The position numbers were made by a program, and so were the translations under genes. The notes under the pieces were generated by a model. It did not search any database. It saw only the letters and a list, made by a program, of their open reading frames with translations, and was not told the DNA's origin. Of a stretch of DNA of 39,303 nt, positions 3,832-39,303 are shown piece after piece (position 1 is the first letter of the stretch; every line of letters starts with the position of its first letter). The DNA comes from Planctomycetota bacterium (lineage in GTDB: Bacteria; Planctomycetota; Phycisphaerae; WQYP01), in assembly GCA_021818445.1 (NCBI GenBank), contig JAKAEB010000034.1, forward strand, positions 1 through 39,303, in the 5' to 3' direction.

Positions 3832-5157
3832 ATGCGCCGTACTGTTTTTGCATTTGGACTTATTCTGCTGGCGACGTGTCAGATGGCATGGGCATGGCGG
3901 CCGGTATTCAACCCCAACAATTTGCGCGACACGATCACCGTGCAAATTATCAAACATTGCCGCCCGGCGATTGTCAGCATTACGGCCCATCGGCTCATCA
4001 GGCAGGAAGTCAACCCGTTTGGCAATATGTTTCCGCTACCTATGGGCATGGGGACAGTGGAACAGGAGCCGGCCGACTTCCTCGGCAGCGGATTTATCAT
4101 TCAAAAAGACGGGTATATCGTCACCAATAATCATGTGGTGGATCAGGCGCGCAGTATCCATGTGAAGTTAGCCAATGGAGAAAAGCTCGCCGCTACCGTG
4201 GTCAACAGCGATCCGAGTGCGGATCTGGCGATACTGAAAATTTCCAAGCCGGGCACGTATCCCACGCTGCAACTCGGCAGTTCCAAGGGATTGATGATCG
4301 GTGAGCCTACCATTGCGGTGGGCAACCCGTTCGGATATTCGCAGAGTGTAAGTTCCGGCATTGTTTCCGCAACAGGCCGCACCATCCATGAGCCGAACAA
4401 TCCGCATCCACTGAAAAATTTGATTCAGACCGATGCGGCCATTAACCCGGGTAACAGCGGGGGACCACTGCTGGATGCTTACGGGCGGGTGATTGGTATC
4501 AACACCGCCATTCGCGGCAATGCACAGGAAATCGGTTTCGCGATTGGAATTGACCGACTCAAAGAACTGATTCCCACACTGATGAACCCGGCGGTGGTGG
4601 ACGGACACACCGTGGATGTGAAATTTGCATTGTGTCCCGGCCACCAGGGCATAGCCGGGCCGCACGAACATGTGGTGATCGCCGGCACCCTGGCACCGAG
4701 GGTGATCGCCGTCAATGGCCAGCGTGTGAATACCCTGCAGGGAGCATATGCGGCACTTCTGGCCGTCGGTGCCAATCAGCCGCAAGTGAGTGTTAAATTT
4801 TCCAACGGTACCACGCGGCAGTATGCGGTAAAGGCGGTACCTCCGTCCCCCATCGTACTGAAAACCAGAAAGCTTCTGGGCATGGTGGTAAAGCAGCTTA
4901 CGCCTGCGATGGCAGGGCGAATGAAGCTAAGTGTGAATAGTGGCCTGCTCATTACGCAGATTTTTCGGCATTCGATCGCCGACAAGGCCGGATTGCAACC
5001 CGGCGATGTGATTATTCAAATTGGGCCTTATCGTGTGCGCAATTTAGACTTCCTCGGCAAGCTGTTGCCGGCCATCGCCAAGGCCCAGCGGGTTGAGGTG
5101 CTGGTGCTGCGCAACGGGCGGGTGGGTGCCGGCTATCTGCAAATAAAAGCACAATGA
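3832..5157 (+). CDS. HtrA/Deg-family periplasmic serine protease with PDZ domains
   Basis: This is a trypsin-like envelope protease or chaperone of the DegP/DegQ/DegS type, likely acting on misfolded exported proteins. A signal peptide is visible (MRRTVFAFGLILLATCQMAWA). The catalytic triad is His101 (TNNHVV), Asp131 (SADLAIL) and Ser209 (GNSGGPL). A degenerate PDZ-like region (about 255-335, APRVIAVNGQRV) is followed by a clear C-terminal PDZ domain (about 345-440, HSIADKAGLQPGDVIIQIG). The start is well supported by CAGGAG seven bases upstream. The stop overlaps an upstream in-frame ATG of the next gene, so they may be cotranscribed. Confidence 0.93.
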   Translation: MRRTVFAFGLILLATCQMAWAWRPVFNPNNLRDTITVQIIKHCRPAIVSITAHRLIRQEVNPFGNMFPLPMGMGTVEQEPADFLGSGFIIQKDGYIVTNNHVVDQARSIHVKLANGEKLAATVVNSDPSADLAILKISKPGTYPTLQLGSSKGLMIGEPTIAVGNPFGYSQSVSSGIVSATGRTIHEPNNPHPLKNLIQTDAAINPGNSGGPLLDAYGRVIGINTAIRGNAQEIGFAIGIDRLKELIPTLMNPAVVDGHTVDVKFALCPGHQGIAGPHEHVVIAGTLAPRVIAVNGQRVNTLQGAYAALLAVGANQPQVSVKFSNGTTRQYAVKAVPPSPIVLKTRKLLGMVVKQLTPAMAGRMKLSVNSGLLITQIFRHSIADKAGLQPGDVIIQIGPYRVRNLDFLGKLLPAIAKAQRVEVLVLRNGRVGAGYLQIKAQ

Positions 5158-29237: not shown

Positions 29238-30422
29238 ATGACATGGTCAAAAGCCGACGGCAAAGCCGCACCCGCGTCCAGTACCACCATTCGGGTTCTC
29301 ACACCGCATGGAGTAGGAGCCATTGCCGTGATTGAAATCAGCGGTGCGGATGCTGGCAAGGTCATCAAAGCCGTGGCGAGCGATAGTCCCCGGTTGGCGA
29401 CGTTGCGGTCGATACATGCGGATGGCGGCGTAATTGACGAAGTACTGATTGTACCGCGCGGCCCTGATTGCTTTGAGTTGCACAGCCATGGCGGATTGCT
29501 GGTGGTGGAAAAATTGGTGCGGTGGATTGCGCATACGTTGGGTGATGACGATATGGCTCATGCGGTGCTGGATAAATGGCGGCACCCGGAGGCGGATTTA
29601 CCGCAAGTGGAAACCCTTTGGGGATTGCGAATGCTGGCACAAGCCCACCGCCGTGGCCCGGCGGATTGGGCCCGCCAGCAGATGCAGAATTTGGAAGGTG
29701 GCGGCAGCGCTAGCGACGTAAAGCAGCAAGCACAATGGTTGCTGGCGGCATCTGCCGACCTGCCTCGCCTGCTGGGAGGGCAAGTGCGCATCGCGCTGGT
29801 CGGCCCGCCCAATGCCGGTAAATCGTCACTGGCGAACTTCTGGCTGGGCCACCCGATGAGTGTCACCAGCGACATCCCGGGAACCACCCGGGACTGGGTG
29901 GAGCAAACCGTACGAATTCATGCAGGTGAATTGGAAATGACCGCACGTCTGACCGACACTGCCGGGATGCGGCAAACGACGGACGAACTGGAACAACTGG
30001 CGATTGCCGGCGGGCTAAGTACGCTATGCCAAACGCAGGTGATTGTGTTGGTGATGGATGTGACGCAAATATCCAACCCGCAGCATCTGCGCTTGGAGGC
30101 TTGGCGGTGGGCGCGGGAGCATGGGCTGGAAAACCAATTGGATAGGGTGCCATGGATTGCCGCCGGCAACAAGTGTGATTTATTGCCACCAATGGCGTTG
30201 TCGGGCGAAGGGGCGGACGGTTTGTCGGTGTGGATCAGCGCGCGACATGGAATGGGGATTACCACCCTGCAGGAAAAGGTAATGCAGGTTTTGGCGGTAC
30301 CGGAAATATTGCGACACCCGGTGATCGACTCGGCGCAGCGTGCGAGGCTGGAGCGGCTGGTTTTAAGTCGCCATTCGGACGATCTGCGGATGCGGCTGCG
30401 TGAAATCGCAGTTGCTATATAG
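29238..30422 (+). CDS. MnmE/TrmE-like GTPase lacking the C-terminal cysteine motif
   Basis: MnmE, with MnmG, modifies the wobble uridine of certain tRNAs. This protein keeps the N-terminal folate-domain start (TTIRVLTPHGVGAIAVIEISG) and a G domain with GPPNAGKSS (residues 189-197), GTTRD, DTAGMR and NKCD. At 394 residues it is shorter than canonical MnmE (about 450). It stops at LRMRLREIAVAI, without the C-terminal FC[IV]GK motif whose cysteine is needed for tRNA modification. The N domain is also poorly conserved. It is therefore a divergent paralogue or a GTPase of altered function; a second, canonical mnmE may exist elsewhere. 82 bases separate it from nnrE. Confidence 0.82.
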   Translation: MTWSKADGKAAPASSTTIRVLTPHGVGAIAVIEISGADAGKVIKAVASDSPRLATLRSIHADGGVIDEVLIVPRGPDCFELHSHGGLLVVEKLVRWIAHTLGDDDMAHAVLDKWRHPEADLPQVETLWGLRMLAQAHRRGPADWARQQMQNLEGGGSASDVKQQAQWLLAASADLPRLLGGQVRIALVGPPNAGKSSLANFWLGHPMSVTSDIPGTTRDWVEQTVRIHAGELEMTARLTDTAGMRQTTDELEQLAIAGGLSTLCQTQVIVLVMDVTQISNPQHLRLEAWRWAREHGLENQLDRVPWIAAGNKCDLLPPMALSGEGADGLSVWISARHGMGITTLQEKVMQVLAVPEILRHPVIDSAQRARLERLVLSRHSDDLRMRLREIAVAI

Positions 30423-30440: not shown

Positions 30441-30650
30441 TTGGTGCGTTCGCAGATGGCGGATGCGCCGCGATTTACGGTAGCGAGTTTCGCGTGTGTA
30501 CGAACGCCGGGCAAGCCCGGTGCTAAGTACGGGCGGCGGGAATCCCCGCCACCATTGCGGTGAGGAAAACGATTTTGCACCGCGGAGAGCGCCAGGATCG
30601 CGAAGACTTGCGTATTTGATGATTTCGTATTTTTTTAGTTTTCTACGCGG

Positions 30651-30988
30651 CCTTTGCGGTGAATCAGCGTAATTATTTGCACCGCCAAGAGCGCCAAGAG
30701 CGCGAAGACCGGGCGCGGTGTCATTTCGTAGTTTTTTAATTCTCTCCGTGGCTCTGCGCGAGGTAATAAACGCTCTCTGCGAGGCATAAGGCTTCATGCC
30801 GGTGGCATGACGAAAAGAGTCTTTTTTAGCGCGCAGAGAAAGAGAGCCACAGAGGTTAAGTTATAAAATCAAACGCGATTCGTTGGCCGAATCTTGAACT
30901 TTAAGCAACACCGGGCAAGCCCGGCGCTATGTACTATTATTATTAGTTAATGTTTGCGTTGCTTGGCGTTTCTTGGCGTCCTCCGAGG
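30651..30988. repeat. tandem composite repeat, unit 1 (338 bp)
   Basis: The unit begins CCTTTGCGGTGAATCAG, followed by TTATTTGCACCGCCAAGAGCG. It contains a distant inverted pair CTCCGTGGCTCTGCGCG ... GCGCGCAGAG...GAGCCACAGAGG, an inner palindrome around TCATGCCGGTGGCATGA, CCGGGCAAGCCCGG (30911-30924) and TTGCTTGGCGTTTCTTGGCG. A decayed partial copy precedes it at about 30575-30645. Confidence 0.85.
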
Positions 30989-31328
30989 CCTTTGCGGTGA
31001 ATCAGGGTAATTATTTGCACCGCCAAGAGCGCCAAGAGCGCGAAGACTGGGCGCGGCGTGAATTAGTGTTGTATTATTTTTTCTCTGTGGCTCTGCGCGA
31101 GATCGTAACCCTTCTCTGTGCGAGTTAAGGTATCATGCCGATGGCATGATGATGTTTGTTTTTTTTTAGCGCGCGGAGAAAGAGAGCCACAGAGGTTAAG
31201 CCATAGAATCACACGCGATTCATTGGCCGGATATTGAACTTTAAGCAACACCGGGCAAGCCCGGTGCTATGTACTATTATTATTAGTTAATGTTTGCGTT
31301 GCTTGGCGTTTCTTGGCGTCCTCTGCGA
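30989..31328. repeat. tandem composite repeat, unit 2 (340 bp)
   Basis: This is nearly identical in order to unit 1, with CCTTTGCGGTGAATCAGGG, the GCCACAGAGG inverted pair, the TCATGCCGATGGCATGA palindrome, and CCGGGCAAGCCCGG at 31251-31264. Confidence 0.85.
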
Positions 31329-31657
31329 CCTTTGCGGTGAACCAGGGTAATTATTTGCACCGCCAAGAGCGCGAAGACTGGGCGCGGCGTTATTTCGTAG
31401 TTTTTTAATTCCCTCCGTGGCTCTGCGCGAAACCATATTTTTTCCCTGTGCGAGTTAAGGTATCATGCCGGTGGAATGATGAAAGTAGTCTTTTTTGGCG
31501 CGCAGAGAAAAGGAGCCACAGAGGTTAAGTTATAAAATCAAACGCGATTCATTGGCCGAATCTTGAACTTTAAGCAACACCGGGCAAGCCCGGTGCTATG
31601 TACTATTATTATTAGTTAATATTTGCGTTGCTTGGCGTTTCTTGGCGTCCTCCGAGG
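31329..31657. repeat. tandem composite repeat, unit 3 (329 bp)
   Basis: Same landmarks as units 1 and 2, with one of the two AAGAGCGCC repeats missing and CCGGGCAAGCCCGG at 31580-31593. A fourth copy begins at 31658 (CCTTTGCGGTGAACCA) and breaks off after about 40 bases at the CACCGCAGCGGGCG junction. Confidence 0.85.
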
Positions 31658-31708
31658 CCTTTGCGGTGAACCAAAGTACCTATCTGCACCGCAGCGGGCG
31701 TTATATGG

Positions 31709-34740: not shown

Positions 34741-35049
34741 GTGCAGATCCCGACCGAGGCAGACGGTTCACCCTCAGAGCAACCGGGTGATTCCGCCACG
34801 GAATCCACCACAACACAGCGGTCAGGTCCGCCGAGCCACGGCAAGGCGGCACCAAATGGCGCGGCGATCCCGTCCAACGGTGGTAAGGACGATTCGAGGC
34901 CGTTGCCGAATGGGTGCCATCGGGCCGCCACCCGACAGCATGGGGCCGACATTGAGGTCCCGGCATTGTTCCCGGATGCGGCGACCGATGATCCTTATGA
35001 TTCGCAGCGATCCACACACCGATCCAGCCAAACAGGAGAATACGAATGA
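34741..35049 (+). CDS. hypothetical hydrophilic ORF overlapping trbB start
   Basis: This frame is open from 34594, but its first start codon is GTG 34741 without a ribosome binding site. The product is Ser/Pro/Gly/Thr-rich and probably disordered. It ends GEYE with TGA inside an ATGA overlap with the trbB start at 35046, the arrangement expected of a coupled upstream gene. It may be the tail of a conjugation protein whose front part has decayed; no family is recognised. Confidence 0.35.
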   Translation: MQIPTEADGSPSEQPGDSATESTTTQRSGPPSHGKAAPNGAAIPSNGGKDDSRPLPNGCHRAATRQHGADIEVPALFPDAATDDPYDSQRSTHRSSQTGEYE

Positions 35050-35273
35050 TTAATATCGTCCAGCAGCGCCACAGCGACAGTCTGAATCATGCCTTGGACC
35101 CGGTGATTGCCGTGGCGTTGGCAGGTCCCGACGTGGCCGAGATCATGGCCAACCCAGACGGCAGCTTGTGGGTGGATGTGATTGTCAAAGGGCGTCAGCG
35201 ACTGGGCCAGATTGCCGCCACCGCCGCCGAAACGGTGGTCCGGTTGTTGGCTTCACACATGAATGAAACGTAA
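35046..35273 (+). pseudogene. trbB: TrbB conjugal transfer ATPase, N-terminal fragment
   Basis: ATG 35046 has AGGAG seven bases upstream. The 75-residue product LNHALDPVIAVALAGPDVAE...MANPDGSLWVD...VRLLASHMNET matches the start of TrbB, the VirB11-type ATPase that drives type IV secretion in IncP-like conjugation. The frame ends at TAA 35271-35273. The -1 frame continues at once with VSPDYPALAGVLPQSGERF, which is the expected next part of TrbB with no loss of residues. A single missing base near 35270 therefore splits the gene. It is likely inactive unless the shift is programmed or a sequence error. Confidence 0.75.
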
Positions 35274-35968
35274 GCCCAGATTACCCAGCCCTTGCCGGTG
35301 TTCTGCCGCAATCCGGCGAACGGTTCCAGGGGTTATTGCCGCCGCTGGTGGACAAGCCGACGTTTTCCATCCGTGAAAGGCCCACGGTCATCTTCACGCT
35401 CGATGATTACGGGGCCAGCGGCGTATTGGCGGCAGAATGGGCACAGACTATTCGCAACGCCCTTGCCCAGCGAAAAAATATTCTTGTCGCCGGTGGCGCT
35501 GGCTCCGGCAAGACCACACTGGTCAACGCCATCCTGCACGAACCGGAATTTCAATGTCAGCGTGTCGTGCTCATCGAAGATACACGGGAACTGCAATGCT
35601 CGGCTCCAGACCGCGTGGAACTGCTGACCAAGAACACCGAGCCCAAAGTGACGATGAATGACTTATTACGCATGACGCTGCGCCTGCGGCCGGACCGCAT
35701 CGTCATAGGTGAAGTCCGTGGCGGCGAAGCCCTGGCCATGCTTAAGGCTTGGAACACCGGTCATCCCGGTGGTGTCGCCACCATTCACGCCAACAGCGCC
35801 CAGGATGCGCTGCACCGGCTGGAAGATTTGATCGGCGAGGTTTCCCAGACAATTCCCCATCGCTCCATCGCATCGGCGATCAATCCGGTAGTTTTCATTG
35901 AACGCATTGCCGGCACCCCAGGGAGGCGGGTATCGCAGATCGTGGAGAACGCTTCAATTGCCCCATGA
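35274..35968 (+). pseudogene. trbB: TrbB conjugal transfer ATPase, C-terminal ATPase fragment
   Basis: The frame opens after 35266 and covers most of TrbB. From the TTG at 35336 the motifs are Walker A GGAGSGKTT (residues 53-61), the Asp box LIEDTREL, Walker B RPDRIVIGEVRGGEA (118-132) and the His box TGHPGGVATIHANS (141-154). These are complete for a VirB11/TrbB hexameric ATPase, but the fragment has no good start of its own. No trbC or later tra/trb gene follows; the next gene is an HTH regulator. It reads as the remnant of a conjugative element. Confidence 0.8.
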
Positions 35969-36018
35969 GGTACTCTGATATGTGGCTAATTTCGTAACTG
36001 GACAGCTTTTGTGGATAA

Positions 36019-36039
36019 GTCTATCATATTTCGATAGAC
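36019..36039. promoter_or_regulatory. inverted repeat upstream of HTH gene, candidate operator
   Basis: GTCTATC (36019-36025) and GATAGAC (36033-36039) are perfect 7-bp arms with a 7-base AT-rich centre, 29 bases upstream of the HTH gene start. Position and form suit autoregulation by the encoded DNA-binding protein. Confidence 0.5.
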
Positions 36040-36067
36040 AATATGCGGTACCGAAGGAGGCCCCGCA

Positions 36068-36337
36068 ATGCTGTATCAACGGTCCTTAAAGATCGAAAAG
36101 CGGCTAGAAACTGTGCTGCGGCTGATTCGCACGGGCGACTATTCCACCCCGAAAATCGCCGAGCAACTTGGTGTTTCTATTCCGACAGTGTCGCGCGACG
36201 TGACGGCTTTGCGCGAGCGAGGAAACAATATCCGATCCAAGCGAATGTCCGATGGATGGCGATACGTTCTGGCCACCAATGGTTCTTCTCGGAGCGGAGG
36301 TTCCACTCGCGTGCAATTGTCAGATGCGAGGCAATGA
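36068..36337 (+). CDS. winged helix-turn-helix regulator (HTH_11/DeoR-like)
   Basis: A small 89-residue DNA-binding protein. The HTH lies at about residues 14-52 (RLETVLRLIRTGDYSTPKIAEQLGVSIPTVSRDVTAL), similar to the N-terminal winged HTH of DeoR-type repressors, followed by a short wing (NIRSKRMSDGWRY) and a Ser/Gly-rich tail with no ligand domain. GGAGG lies eight bases before ATG. The TGA overlaps the ATG of a 17-codon frame, so translation is coupled to what follows. It probably controls the AAA-protease operon through the nearby inverted repeat. Confidence 0.8.
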   Translation: MLYQRSLKIEKRLETVLRLIRTGDYSTPKIAEQLGVSIPTVSRDVTALRERGNNIRSKRMSDGWRYVLATNGSSRSGGSTRVQLSDARQ

Positions 36338-36387
36338 GCGCCTATAACGACGTGTTTTTGAAGGTCAGAAAGGCAAGGAACCCATGA
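36334..36387 (+). CDS. 17-codon bridging ORF with ATGA overlaps at both ends
   Basis: ATG 36334 overlaps the HTH stop (ATGA) and its own TGA 36385-36387 overlaps the ATG of the AAA gene (ATGA). It encodes MSAYNDVFLKVRKARNP, with a purine-rich GAGG just upstream. It may be a real micro-protein or only a coupling device that carries ribosomes from the regulator to the ATPase gene. No homology is recognised. Confidence 0.35.
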   Translation: MSAYNDVFLKVRKARNP

Positions 36388-37391
36388 ACGCCGGCATACT
36401 CAAGAGGGTTGTGCGTGCCATCGCCGATGGTTCCCAGAGCGACCTTGACCAGCTTGCCCAGAAAATTATTGAGGCCGAACGTCGAACGGGACACGGTAAA
36501 CTCGCGGACCAGCTACAGGTAATCCTTAGCCGCTCGCGTAGCCGTAAGCCTACTACCCCGGCTGCTATCCGCGATGATCGGAGCCTCAAGGAGCTCCCCC
36601 TCAGCCGACGGCATGGCGAATCCCTTGCCGAGATTTTCCCGCGAGAATCGTTGGAGCATTACATGGTGCTGCCTCCCGACACCGAGACTCGGTTCGCACG
36701 CATTGAGTGCGAGTTCGCGGCCAGGGAGCGGCTCGGCGTCTATGGCTTACGTCCCCGCAAGACCATCTTATTGTATGGGCCACCGGGATGCGGTAAGTCG
36801 TTGGGGGCCAAACGTTTAGCGTGGAATACTGGCCTGCCACTGATGAAAGTGCGGTTTGACACTTTAATTTCATCGTACTTTGGCGAATCGGCCGCGAATT
36901 TACGGTCCGTTTTCACCGCCGCGAGGGAGCTTACTTGTGTGCTCCTGATTGATGAGTGCGATTTCATCGCCCGTTCACGCCTCAACACCAAGGATGTCGG
37001 CGAAGCCGCACGCATCGTCAATTCGCTGCTGCAATTGATGGAGGAATATGACGCCCCCGGTTTGCTTGTCGCGACCACCAACGTCGAGTCCTCCTTGGAC
37101 CCGGCCATCTTCCGCCGTTTCGATGATGTTTTTCACGTCCCGTTGCCAGGGCCGACAGAAGTTGAGAAACTCTTACGTACGACGCTTTCGGCTTTGCAAG
37201 TGGCGGAGCCACTCGATTGGACAATGCTGGTAGAGGAGTTAACGGGGGCATCGGCCGCGATGGTCGTTAAAGCCGCTCAAGATGCAGCCAAAGCGGCTGT
37301 ACTCCACGGCCCCAAGATAATCACTGAAGACCTATTGCGGCAGGCGATTATTGAACAGCGAAGGCACGATGAGCAGCCGAAGGGAGTCTAG
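36384..37391 (+). CDS. AAA+ ATPase paired with a subtilisin-like protease
   Basis: A 335-residue protein with a helical N-terminal part (about 1-85) and one AAA+ module. Walker A is GPPGCGKS (132-139), Walker B VLLIDECD (Asp190, Glu191), sensor 1 ATTN (Asn233), and the arginine-finger region FRRFDD (Arg244/245); a C-terminal helical lid follows. The sequence type resembles the FtsH/CDC48/spastin side of AAA ATPases, which remodel or unfold proteins. AAGGAA precedes ATG. Only three bases separate its stop from the protease gene, so the two are surely coexpressed, and the ATPase probably regulates or feeds the protease. Confidence 0.88.
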   Translation: MNAGILKRVVRAIADGSQSDLDQLAQKIIEAERRTGHGKLADQLQVILSRSRSRKPTTPAAIRDDRSLKELPLSRRHGESLAEIFPRESLEHYMVLPPDTETRFARIECEFAARERLGVYGLRPRKTILLYGPPGCGKSLGAKRLAWNTGLPLMKVRFDTLISSYFGESAANLRSVFTAARELTCVLLIDECDFIARSRLNTKDVGEAARIVNSLLQLMEEYDAPGLLVATTNVESSLDPAIFRRFDDVFHVPLPGPTEVEKLLRTTLSALQVAEPLDWTMLVEELTGASAAMVVKAAQDAAKAAVLHGPKIITEDLLRQAIIEQRRHDEQPKGV

Positions 37392-37394
37392 CCA

Positions 37395-39303
37395 ATGCCT
37401 GGCGCGCACAATTTTGAGCATCTTCTTTTGCTCCTACGTTATCAGGGCAGAGCACGTCTTCATGGAAGAGGCACTACTTCCCCGCAAACTCTGGCAAACA
37501 AGAACGCACGGCAGGCACACTGCACGGCGCTTCGCGCCGCTGGGCAATCATTAACGGATAGCTGGCAGGCGCGCAAAGCTCAAAGGCAAAGTCAGAATCT
37601 CCCTGTAATCCCCGAAGGCATCCCGATTCTTCTTAAAGTCGATCCGAGTCTTGAACTTGACGCTTTGCGCGACATGTTCAATTTTGAGATAGTCGCGGAG
37701 CAGGAGGAAGGCTATGTCATCGTGGCATCCGAGGACATCCAGCTTGGGCTGTTTCTCAAGATGGTTCAAGGGTTTGCCGTTCAGGTGCATGGTTCGGCAA
37801 CTGTAGCATCAGTACACAAGCTCTTTGATGATCCAAGCCAGATTGATCGCCTTCGTCGCATTCTTTCGGAACACCTTTTCAGCATGTGGCCGACTATTGA
37901 CGACGGTCAAATTTACGTCGTCGATATAGGGATCAGCTGCACGGGTATTCAAGAGATACCCCCATATCCCATAAGAGGCAAACGCGATACGGATGCTGAT
38001 TGGGCCAATAAGGAAAGCGCATGGTCGCAGGCCCGTGCCCAGGCGTATACCGCTTGGGAGCAAATCAGAATCAGCCGAGAAAAGGGGATTCTGGCGTTTG
38101 CCGAGTTCTACCACGCTGAAATCATGCGCATCATTGACGGCCAGCCGTATAACGCTGCCGCCTTATCCGATAGCTTCACAATCCGCATCAAGACCAGCGG
38201 GAAAGGCCTCAAGGATTTCATCCTCAATTATGCGTACATCTTTGAGGTTGTGGAACCGGAAGATATTGTGCTTCCGCAGGGTTCTGGAAAAGCAGGTGCT
38301 CAACCTGCACGAATGGCCGCACCAACACCCCCGGATGCAAATGCGCCAGCGGTTTGCGTGATCGACAGCGGGATTCAAGAGGGGCACGTTCTGTTGCAAC
38401 CAGCCGTTGACCAAGCCACGTCCCATTGTTTCCTGCCGGGCAAAACGGCCGACGATATTGGCGACTTTGTCTCCCCAGCGGGCCACGGGACACGGGTAGC
38501 AGGTGCAGTTCTATACGGAGAAACAGTGGCGAAGGGCGGTACGCCACAACTCCCGTTTTGGATTCAAAATGCCCGTGTCCTTGACGAGCATAATCGCATG
38601 CCCGTTGAATTGTTCCCGCCAGCAGCGGTTCGCGCCGCTGTTGAGCGTTTTCATAAAGGGCCGCGTCACACGCGCATTTTCAACCATTCCATTAACGCCG
38701 ACGGCTGTTCCCGGACCCGCTATATGTCCTCATGGGCGGCGGAAATCGACTCGCTTTGTGCCGCGTATGACGTGCTGGTGATACAGAGTACTGGTAACCT
38801 TCAAGTGACCGGCACGCCTCCCTATTTGGGGTTCAAGGATCACCTTGCCGCTGGACGCACATACCCCGCGTATTTATCCGAACCCTCATCCCGCATCGCC
38901 AATCCGGGTCAGAGTTTGCAGGCTCTTACAGTAGGTTCGGTTGCTTACGGGTCGTTGGAAAGCGGAGGTTGGCAGACCTTCGCCAAAGCAGCGGGGCACC
39001 CGTCTGCGTTTTCACGTTCCGGCCTTGCCATCTGGAGCATAATCAAACCAGAAGTTGTCGAGTACGGTGGTGACGCCATCCATTCAGGTGCCGCCAACCC
39101 GGATATCCAAATCGGCGGCCGCATTCCGGCGGCTTGTCCTGAGTTAGTCCGTTCCACCATGTTCCCGCCAGGCCCCGCGTATGACCGCGACCAGGCTGGC
39201 ACATCCTTCGCCGCTCCCAAAGTCACGCGTATTGCCGCCCAGTTACAACGATTGTTTCCCGACGAACCCGCATTGCTGTATCGCGCCCTGGTGGTTCAGT
39301 CCG
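37395..39303 (+). CDS. S8 subtilisin-like serine protease with large N-terminal region (3' end beyond window)
   Basis: The frame is open from ATG 37395 to the window edge (636 codons). No signal peptide is seen, so it is probably cytoplasmic. Residues about 70-310 form an N-terminal region (PVIPEGIPILLKVDPSL, GYVIVASEDIQLGLFLK, and a helical AWSQARAQAYTAWEQIRISR part) before the peptidase. The catalytic triad is Asp324 (VCVIDSGI), His364 (AGHGTRVAG) and Ser604 (GTSFAAPK), with an oxyanion Asn in the STGN segment. All catalytic residues are intact. Its cytoplasmic location and coupling to an AAA+ ATPase suggest a regulated intracellular protease, possibly in defence; that role is inference. 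Confidence 0.88.
   Translation, partial: MPGAHNFEHLLLLLRYQGRARLHGRGTTSPQTLANKNARQAHCTALRAAGQSLTDSWQARKAQRQSQNLPVIPEGIPILLKVDPSLELDALRDMFNFEIVAEQEEGYVIVASEDIQLGLFLKMVQGFAVQVHGSATVASVHKLFDDPSQIDRLRRILSEHLFSMWPTIDDGQIYVVDIGISCTGIQEIPPYPIRGKRDTDADWANKESAWSQARAQAYTAWEQIRISREKGILAFAEFYHAEIMRIIDGQPYNAAALSDSFTIRIKTSGKGLKDFILNYAYIFEVVEPEDIVLPQGSGKAGAQPARMAAPTPPDANAPAVCVIDSGIQEGHVLLQPAVDQATSHCFLPGKTADDIGDFVSPAGHGTRVAGAVLYGETVAKGGTPQLPFWIQNARVLDEHNRMPVELFPPAAVRAAVERFHKGPRHTRIFNHSINADGCSRTRYMSSWAAEIDSLCAAYDVLVIQSTGNLQVTGTPPYLGFKDHLAAGRTYPAYLSEPSSRIANPGQSLQALTVGSVAYGSLESGGWQTFAKAAGHPSAFSRSGLAIWSIIKPEVVEYGGDAIHSGAANPDIQIGGRIPAACPELVRSTMFPPGPAYDRDQAGTSFAAPKVTRIAAQLQRLFPDEPALLYRALVVQS

Follow-up and report, generated by a model that had tools for sequence, protein, structure and literature searches.

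A small winged-helix gene with a shared operator, probably encoding a portable autorepressor, heads an ietAS-type defence operon in a Planctomycetota bacterium

This study concerns a 39,303-nucleotide (nt) stretch of DNA, hereafter the window, from a Planctomycetota bacterium (GenBank assembly GCA_021818445.1, contig JAKAEB010000034.1), and in particular an operon at its downstream end that comprises a gene for an 89-amino-acid (aa) winged helix-turn-helix (HTH) protein, a gene for an AAA+ ATPase, and a gene for an S8 protease, preceded by the 21-base-pair (bp) inverted repeat GTCTATC-N7-GATAGAC. We read it, with some assurance, as an ietAS-type defence operon headed by the HTH gene and a shared operator. 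The same gene and operator also head unrelated restriction-modification operons, and the HTH protein is therefore probably a portable autorepressor. As judged from profile matches, the ATPase and protease belong to the already named anti-phage system ietAS and the pair is not new, while the small HTH gene seems to be a new part.

Results

The operator accompanies the HTH gene at ietAS loci

Loci of the ietAS type were collected from genome contigs (best 80 of 244 relatives) and from viral contigs (nine loci). A homologue of the window-type HTH gene lies upstream at 19 of the 89 loci (16/80 genome, 3/9 viral). Among the 85 loci whose sequence reaches at least 250 nt back from the estimated start of the ATPase gene, the operator core CTATC-N7-GATAG is present at 16 of the 19 loci with the HTH gene, versus 1 of the 66 loci without it. 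Two of the three HTH loci that lack the core have no sequence ahead of the HTH gene (L035 and L110), and the third matches at 13 of 14 positions (L056), while the sole core without an HTH gene (L027, upstream of position 4613) is a relict dyad directly before the ATPase gene, the HTH gene being gone. This conservation supports the proposal, made in a preliminary description of the window, that the HTH protein with its operator is likely the switch of the operon.

The full repeat occurs once in the window (0 matches in 100 dinucleotide shuffles), and this copy is the sole exact match in the 3.7-Mb genome, which holds one near-match, on contig C64. Across the 30 HTH loci with upstream sequence (the window included; L035 and L110, with the HTH gene at the contig end, dropped), 25 match the operator at 13 or 14 of its 14 positions, four at 11–12, and one at 10; L044 is a near copy of L108, so these two do not count as independent. 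For 27 of the 30 loci, no shuffle of 200 reached the observed match; the exceptions include L061 (2 shuffles) and L301 (3 shuffles).

The dyad is positioned over putative promoter elements. Specifically, in 20 of the 30 loci a hexamer that starts with TTGAC precedes the right-arm hexamer by exactly 17 nt, and the right-arm hexamer is mostly TAGACA or TAGACT. Under either promoter assignment, with the right-arm hexamer or with TGGACA-17-TATCAT (Table 1), the dyad covers predicted elements.

In a tree of the proteases with 63 rows, of which 60 have a regulator state (L052, L062, and L105 have none), nine changes are needed among HTH, XRE-type regulator, and neither, with the HTH gene scattered through one supported branch of 32 rows. 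At eight loci of mixed origin (L037, L041, L042, L045, L047, L055, L069, and L107), another, related small HTH gene replaces the window type (HTH_3 in the two scanned, 1.8e-07 and 3e-07); a fairly constant gap of ~121–126 nt precedes the ATPase gene at these loci and seems, by eye, to hold a similar open frame of ~40 codons ending at the ATPase start.

The same HTH–operator unit precedes other operons

The HTH gene was sought by three routes, in 392 genomes of the phylum (with matches stronger than 4.7e-9), in viral contigs, and in 20 genomes with ietAS loci; plasmids gave no match to the window-type HTH. Twelve HTH loci fall outside the ietAS loci of the clade. One precedes a divergent ietAS (L242), one runs to the contig end (L274), and ten are readable non-ietAS loci, at nine of which the HTH–operator unit heads defence-type genes: a DrmD-like helicase and a type III methylase, alone (L239), with an OLD/TOPRIM ATPase (L240), or with a type III restriction enzyme (L296, the helicase placed by 78% identity to that of L240 and by its SNF2 domain); type IIG enzymes (L241, L275, L300, and L301, the partial gene of L300 having no PADLOC match itself and being placed only by 57% identity to that of L241); a type III methylase (L273); and, at L298, a helicase of the AAA_11/AAA_12 kind that matches PADLOC candidates only in part. 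The predicted switch is thus not tied to the ATPase–protease pair, which the preliminary description did not foresee. In L241, L300, and L301, an operator arm is altered (GTTAG for GATAG; both arms in L301) and the recognition helix of the HTH protein differs in sequence, a possible co-change of protein and site.

An HTH tree, built without L035 and L108, requires at least six (30 rows) or at least five (28 rows) switches between ietAS and other partners. A single clade of ietAS HTH proteins is rejected (p-AU 0.017, 28 rows, L242 and L302 also omitted), with groups that were set by partner gene after the tree had been seen.

We also searched 343 genomes of the phylum for the operator-promoter pattern TTGACNNGTCTATCAN6GATAG, allowing at most one mismatch; the operator of the window falls outside this pattern because its −35 is missing. 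Four sites were obtained, versus one for a reversed control, and all four precede this HTH family and a restriction-like operon. Three are those of L239, L240, and L241. The fourth, new site is on contig C64 of the window's own genome, followed by a frame-broken remnant of the same HTH gene (read by eye) and, downstream, by an HKD and SNF2 helicase (C3a139, 2.5e-123) and a type III methylase (1.9e-232). The intact HTH protein of the window might act in trans on the C64 operator, whose own HTH copy has decayed. In viral contigs an operator pattern matched 114 stretches (80 of them listed), which we set aside as near chance for so large a collection, on a rough estimate from the number of specified bases.

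Organization of the window operon

The inverted repeat, the winged-HTH gene, the AAA+ gene with its motifs, the S8 protease gene 3 nt later, and the catalytic triad are all present as first described (36019–39302; Table 1). The ATPase carries Walker A at residues 132–139, Walker B (VLLIDE) at 186–191, and RRFD at 244–247. The triad residues D324, H364, and S604 are present in the window protease and, together with N468, in all 80 rows of a diverse protease alignment. The reported lack of a signal peptide also holds, a crude hydropathy scan of the window protease showing no export-like segment.

The window protease is incomplete, which the preliminary description does not mention: it is cut by the contig end at residue 636. 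A search in which 2327 candidates passed out of 7992 scored listed 120 homologues, most of them ~890 residues long; the missing piece was not found elsewhere in the window's genome. The scan that proposed the promoter-like sequence gave a mean of 0.6 sites in shuffles. Short bridging ORFs (open reading frames) between the HTH and ATPase genes were given no weight, because every open frame that finishes at ATGA produces one.

Table 1. Elements of the operon and their positions in the window
Feature	Position	Strand	Remarks
Promoter-like TGGACA-17-TATCAT	35999..36027	+	consensus match only; second hexamer inside the left arm of the operator
Operator, inverted repeat GTCTATC-N7-GATAGAC	36019..36039		21-bp dyad; kept 5′ of HTH homologues
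Winged-HTH regulator, 89 aa, single domain; likely autorepressor	36068..36337	+	HTH_11 5.9e-08
17-codon ORF overlapping HTH stop and ATPase start	36334..36387	+	possible translational coupling, weak evidence
IetA-like AAA+ ATPase, 335 aa	36384..37391	+	Pfam AAA 2.2e-30
IetS-like S8 protease, first 636 residues	37395..39302	+	Pfam S8 3.4e-27; gene cut by contig end

The ATPase–protease pair is of the ietAS type

The ATPase matches the PADLOC IetA model PDLC02196 (8.7e-70, residues 6–329) and the protease matches the PADLOC IetS model PDLC02198 (5.7e-43), assignments judged by profile E-value and span rather than by PADLOC's own coverage thresholds. A full-length relative of the protease (P0001) matches IetS at 1.1e-58 over residues 263–856, its N-terminal 260 residues lying outside the match. 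Neither window protein reaches the NCBIfam equivalog cut-offs for IteA/IteS (201.1 of 510 bits for the ATPase, 100.4 of 900 for the protease), nor does P0001 reach that for the protease (96.1 of 900 bits). Scores so far under the cut-offs place the window pair in a distant branch of a broad ietAS system. The system, reportedly due to Gao et al. 2020, shares with the window adjoining genes for an AAA+ ATPase and an S8 protease and profile matches to both; the window operon differs in being headed by an HTH gene and operator, and the relatives have ~890 aa versus 747 positions in the model.

The two genes are adjacent at nearly all loci: the ATPase gene is upstream of, and on the same strand as, the protease gene at 77 of 80 genome loci (75 within 60 nt, 30 with exactly the 3-nt gap seen in the window) and adjoins it at 9 of 9 viral-contig loci; at the other three genome loci the protease starts 92–128 nt from the contig end, leaving no room. 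Two remote S8 matches (L024 and L025) have no IetA alongside in their short flanks. Described beforehand as unusual, the pair is conserved but already named, and so becomes a known defence pair.

Among the best 80 relatives, the taxa include Planctomycetota, Acidobacteria, Betaproteobacteria, Syntrophobacteraceae, cyanobacteria, and Clostridia. Any match at all is found in 14 of 150 relatives of the window's genome (itself included), the close branch comprising that genome and two others; none of the three other genomes of its genus has the pair; and the clade profile reaches E 1e-60 in 7 of 392 phylum genomes, again counting the window's own. In plasmids, the protease matches 414 records, of which 10 cover at least 80% and only one exceeds 60% identity; phage records gave no match.

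A structure model of the protease

A structure model of the protease computed from 80 alignment rows has a pLDDT of 89.3; one built from only 25 close rows reached a pLDDT of 44.7, too poor to use. The Foldseek matches listed are S8-type proteases, the top match being the pro-domain subtilisin 3afg, aligned from model residue 153, and S8 is the only Pfam match in the protein. Tk-SP pro-subtilisin (3afg, a pro-form) and KP-43 (1wmd) both match the S8 domain as well as the beta domain that follows; IetS differs from them in its longer N-terminal part, its lack of an export-like segment, and its ATPase partner. Toward the N-terminus, where an I9-type prodomain would be sought, the model shows two beta-alpha-beta-beta-alpha-beta orders, at residues 76–143 and 173–286. 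From the predicted structure, IetS may be a latent protease that the ATPase licenses. Full-length relatives carry an acidic C-terminal tail, the final 20 residues having a net acidic charge of at least 3 in 61 of 70 rows, and this tail might serve to dock the ATPase.

DNA flanking the operon

The conjugation remnant noted earlier beside the operon is borne out: a TrbB-like conjugation ATPase piece at 35336–35968 matches TIGR02782 (1.7e-80, profile positions 91–295 of 303) as the C-terminal part, and the frame 35046–35273 looks, by eye, like the N-terminal part. The two lie in different frames, and the TrbB-like gene therefore seems broken. Farther upstream, 30503–31692 holds three to four direct repeats that are spaced by 329–340 nt and reach 90% identity over 300 nt; another repeat, of 58 nt, lies at 30416 and 31702.

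Discussion

In the mechanism we propose, a dimer of the HTH protein would sit on the dyad over the promoter and block both its own gene and the defence genes, so that the operon is kept low by autorepression. Expression would rise once the HTH protein is absent or diluted, as when the operon enters a new cell or a phage shuts off host synthesis; absence or dilution is proposed as the trigger because the HTH protein has no recognizable sensor domain. IetS would be made latent behind prodomain-like N-terminal units, and IetA, translated just before it, would remodel IetS or its substrate and so bring about cleavage.

Several observations weigh against this reading. Repression is read from the position of the operator; the window lacks the TTGAC hexamer that 20 of 30 loci have; and at L242, 6 of 200 shuffles equal the real operator match. 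The HTH gene is missing from 66 of 85 ietAS loci and from the nearest two relatives, whose proteases are 90% and 85% identical to that of the window, and is therefore dispensable; in another phylum it was found in 1 of 297 genomes, namely the centre genome itself. Most forks of the HTH tree are weakly supported, and the operator-promoter pattern was written with the L239, L240, and L241 sites already known. At L302 (3897–5956), a distant HTH-family gene, whose operator is degenerate, precedes a non-defence gene, a Na+/H+ antiporter with no PADLOC match. The fold search barely covered the N-terminal part of the protease. Finally, the link to defence islands raised in the preliminary description fared poorly in a small test: few of the 67 ORFs of at least 200 aa in the ietAS flanks (of 172 collected) match defence models, three of them PDC-S28, with one member each for the other families (25 of 70 families listed), so the signal is weak.

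Four other readings were weighed. The strongest, the full model of the preliminary description, holds that the HTH protein itself answers phage infection and that the ATPase–protease pair, with the ATPase sensing or unfolding a target, would kill the infected cell by abortive infection. The listing of ietAS as an anti-phage system and the placing of the operon under a dedicated regulator favour it, but no Pfam sensing domain is found in the HTH protein and the mechanism of ietAS is called unknown in the available parts of two papers (PMC11878078, PMC9958689); we consider it unlikely, though the most serious competitor.

Less probable still is that the HTH protein is an activator or timing protein, like the controller proteins of restriction-modification systems, that binds the dyad and raises transcription after a delay. 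Delayed expression of restriction-modification genes protects a new host, and 8 of the 10 readable non-ietAS loci carry genes of this type; the absent TTGAC hexamer also fits an activator. However, the dyad lies over the predicted −35/−10 spacer and −10, not ahead of the −35, and the downstream genes are kept at loci that have lost the HTH gene.

It is very improbable that the HTH protein is a substrate or antitoxin-like partner that licensed IetS cuts to free the promoter, as CapP cuts CapH. The encoding of the protease in the same operon and the available description of CapH and CapP (PMC13373217) would agree with such cleavage, but the same HTH gene and operator head operons in which no scanned gene matched a protease model. 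Least credible is a housekeeping protein-quality pair with an incidental HTH link, which the AAA part, nearest to CDC48/p97 among solved structures, recommends but the patchy presence of the pair (0/3 other genus genomes, 14/150 relatives, 7/392 phylum genomes) opposes.

Autorepression by the HTH protein, our preferred reading, invites comparison with known defence regulators, made here from the available parts of PMC12255303, PMC13373217, PMC9122601, PMC9122588, and PMC9090908. No single-domain winged helix with this operator was found among the open-licence papers listed, which showed WYL regulators, RptR, CapH, and CapS; on the best reading, the HTH protein is separate from CapW/BrxR, CapH, CapS, and RptR. 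CapW/BrxR are described in these sources as WYL regulators of CBASS, BREX, and other systems that repress via inverted repeats near or over the −10. They likewise stand ahead of diverse defence operons, whereas the window-type HTH protein is one winged-helix domain of ~76–89 aa whose operator, GTCTATC-N7-GATAGAC, is common to several operons. No WYL domain is among the 25 Pfam matches listed for the 89-aa protein, which are to HTH, sigma-factor, or other DNA-binding domains, save one to a short domain of unknown function.

RptR, as described there, is a ~9 kDa product of the first gene ahead of a type I restriction-modification system that binds over the −10 and controls the restriction genes, and in this it resembles the window protein as read here; it is described as alpha-helical and as binding TAGCTA repeats, whereas the window protein matches HTH_11 and has a 21-bp dyad, with no TAGCTA in 35980–36067. 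CapH with CapP (PMC13373217) and CapK with CapS are presented as repressors that head immune operons of various kinds, again a likeness, and that act with a sensor partner, a protease activated by single-stranded DNA or a kinase; such a partner is not seen in the window operon up to the contig end. A CapP-like metallopeptidase gene is absent, AAA+ and S8 genes coming next up to that end; there is no STAS domain among the listed Pfam matches of the HTH protein and no kinase gene between the HTH and protease genes.

These comparisons admit a broader idea, which we offer tentatively and at less than even chances: that the window represents a further class of controller, a sensorless winged-helix repressor of 76–89 aa that travels with its own 21-bp operator-promoter and heads ietAS, type III and IIG restriction, helicase, and OLD-nuclease operons. 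Such a controller would give a defence burst in a naive cell and could wire several systems of one genome together.

Control that keeps defence operons quiet until needed is known for few regulator families only. A minimal regulator with a conserved operator across unrelated systems would be a simple test case of exchangeable control, and its operator word may serve as a probe for undescribed defence operons and as a handle on ietAS.

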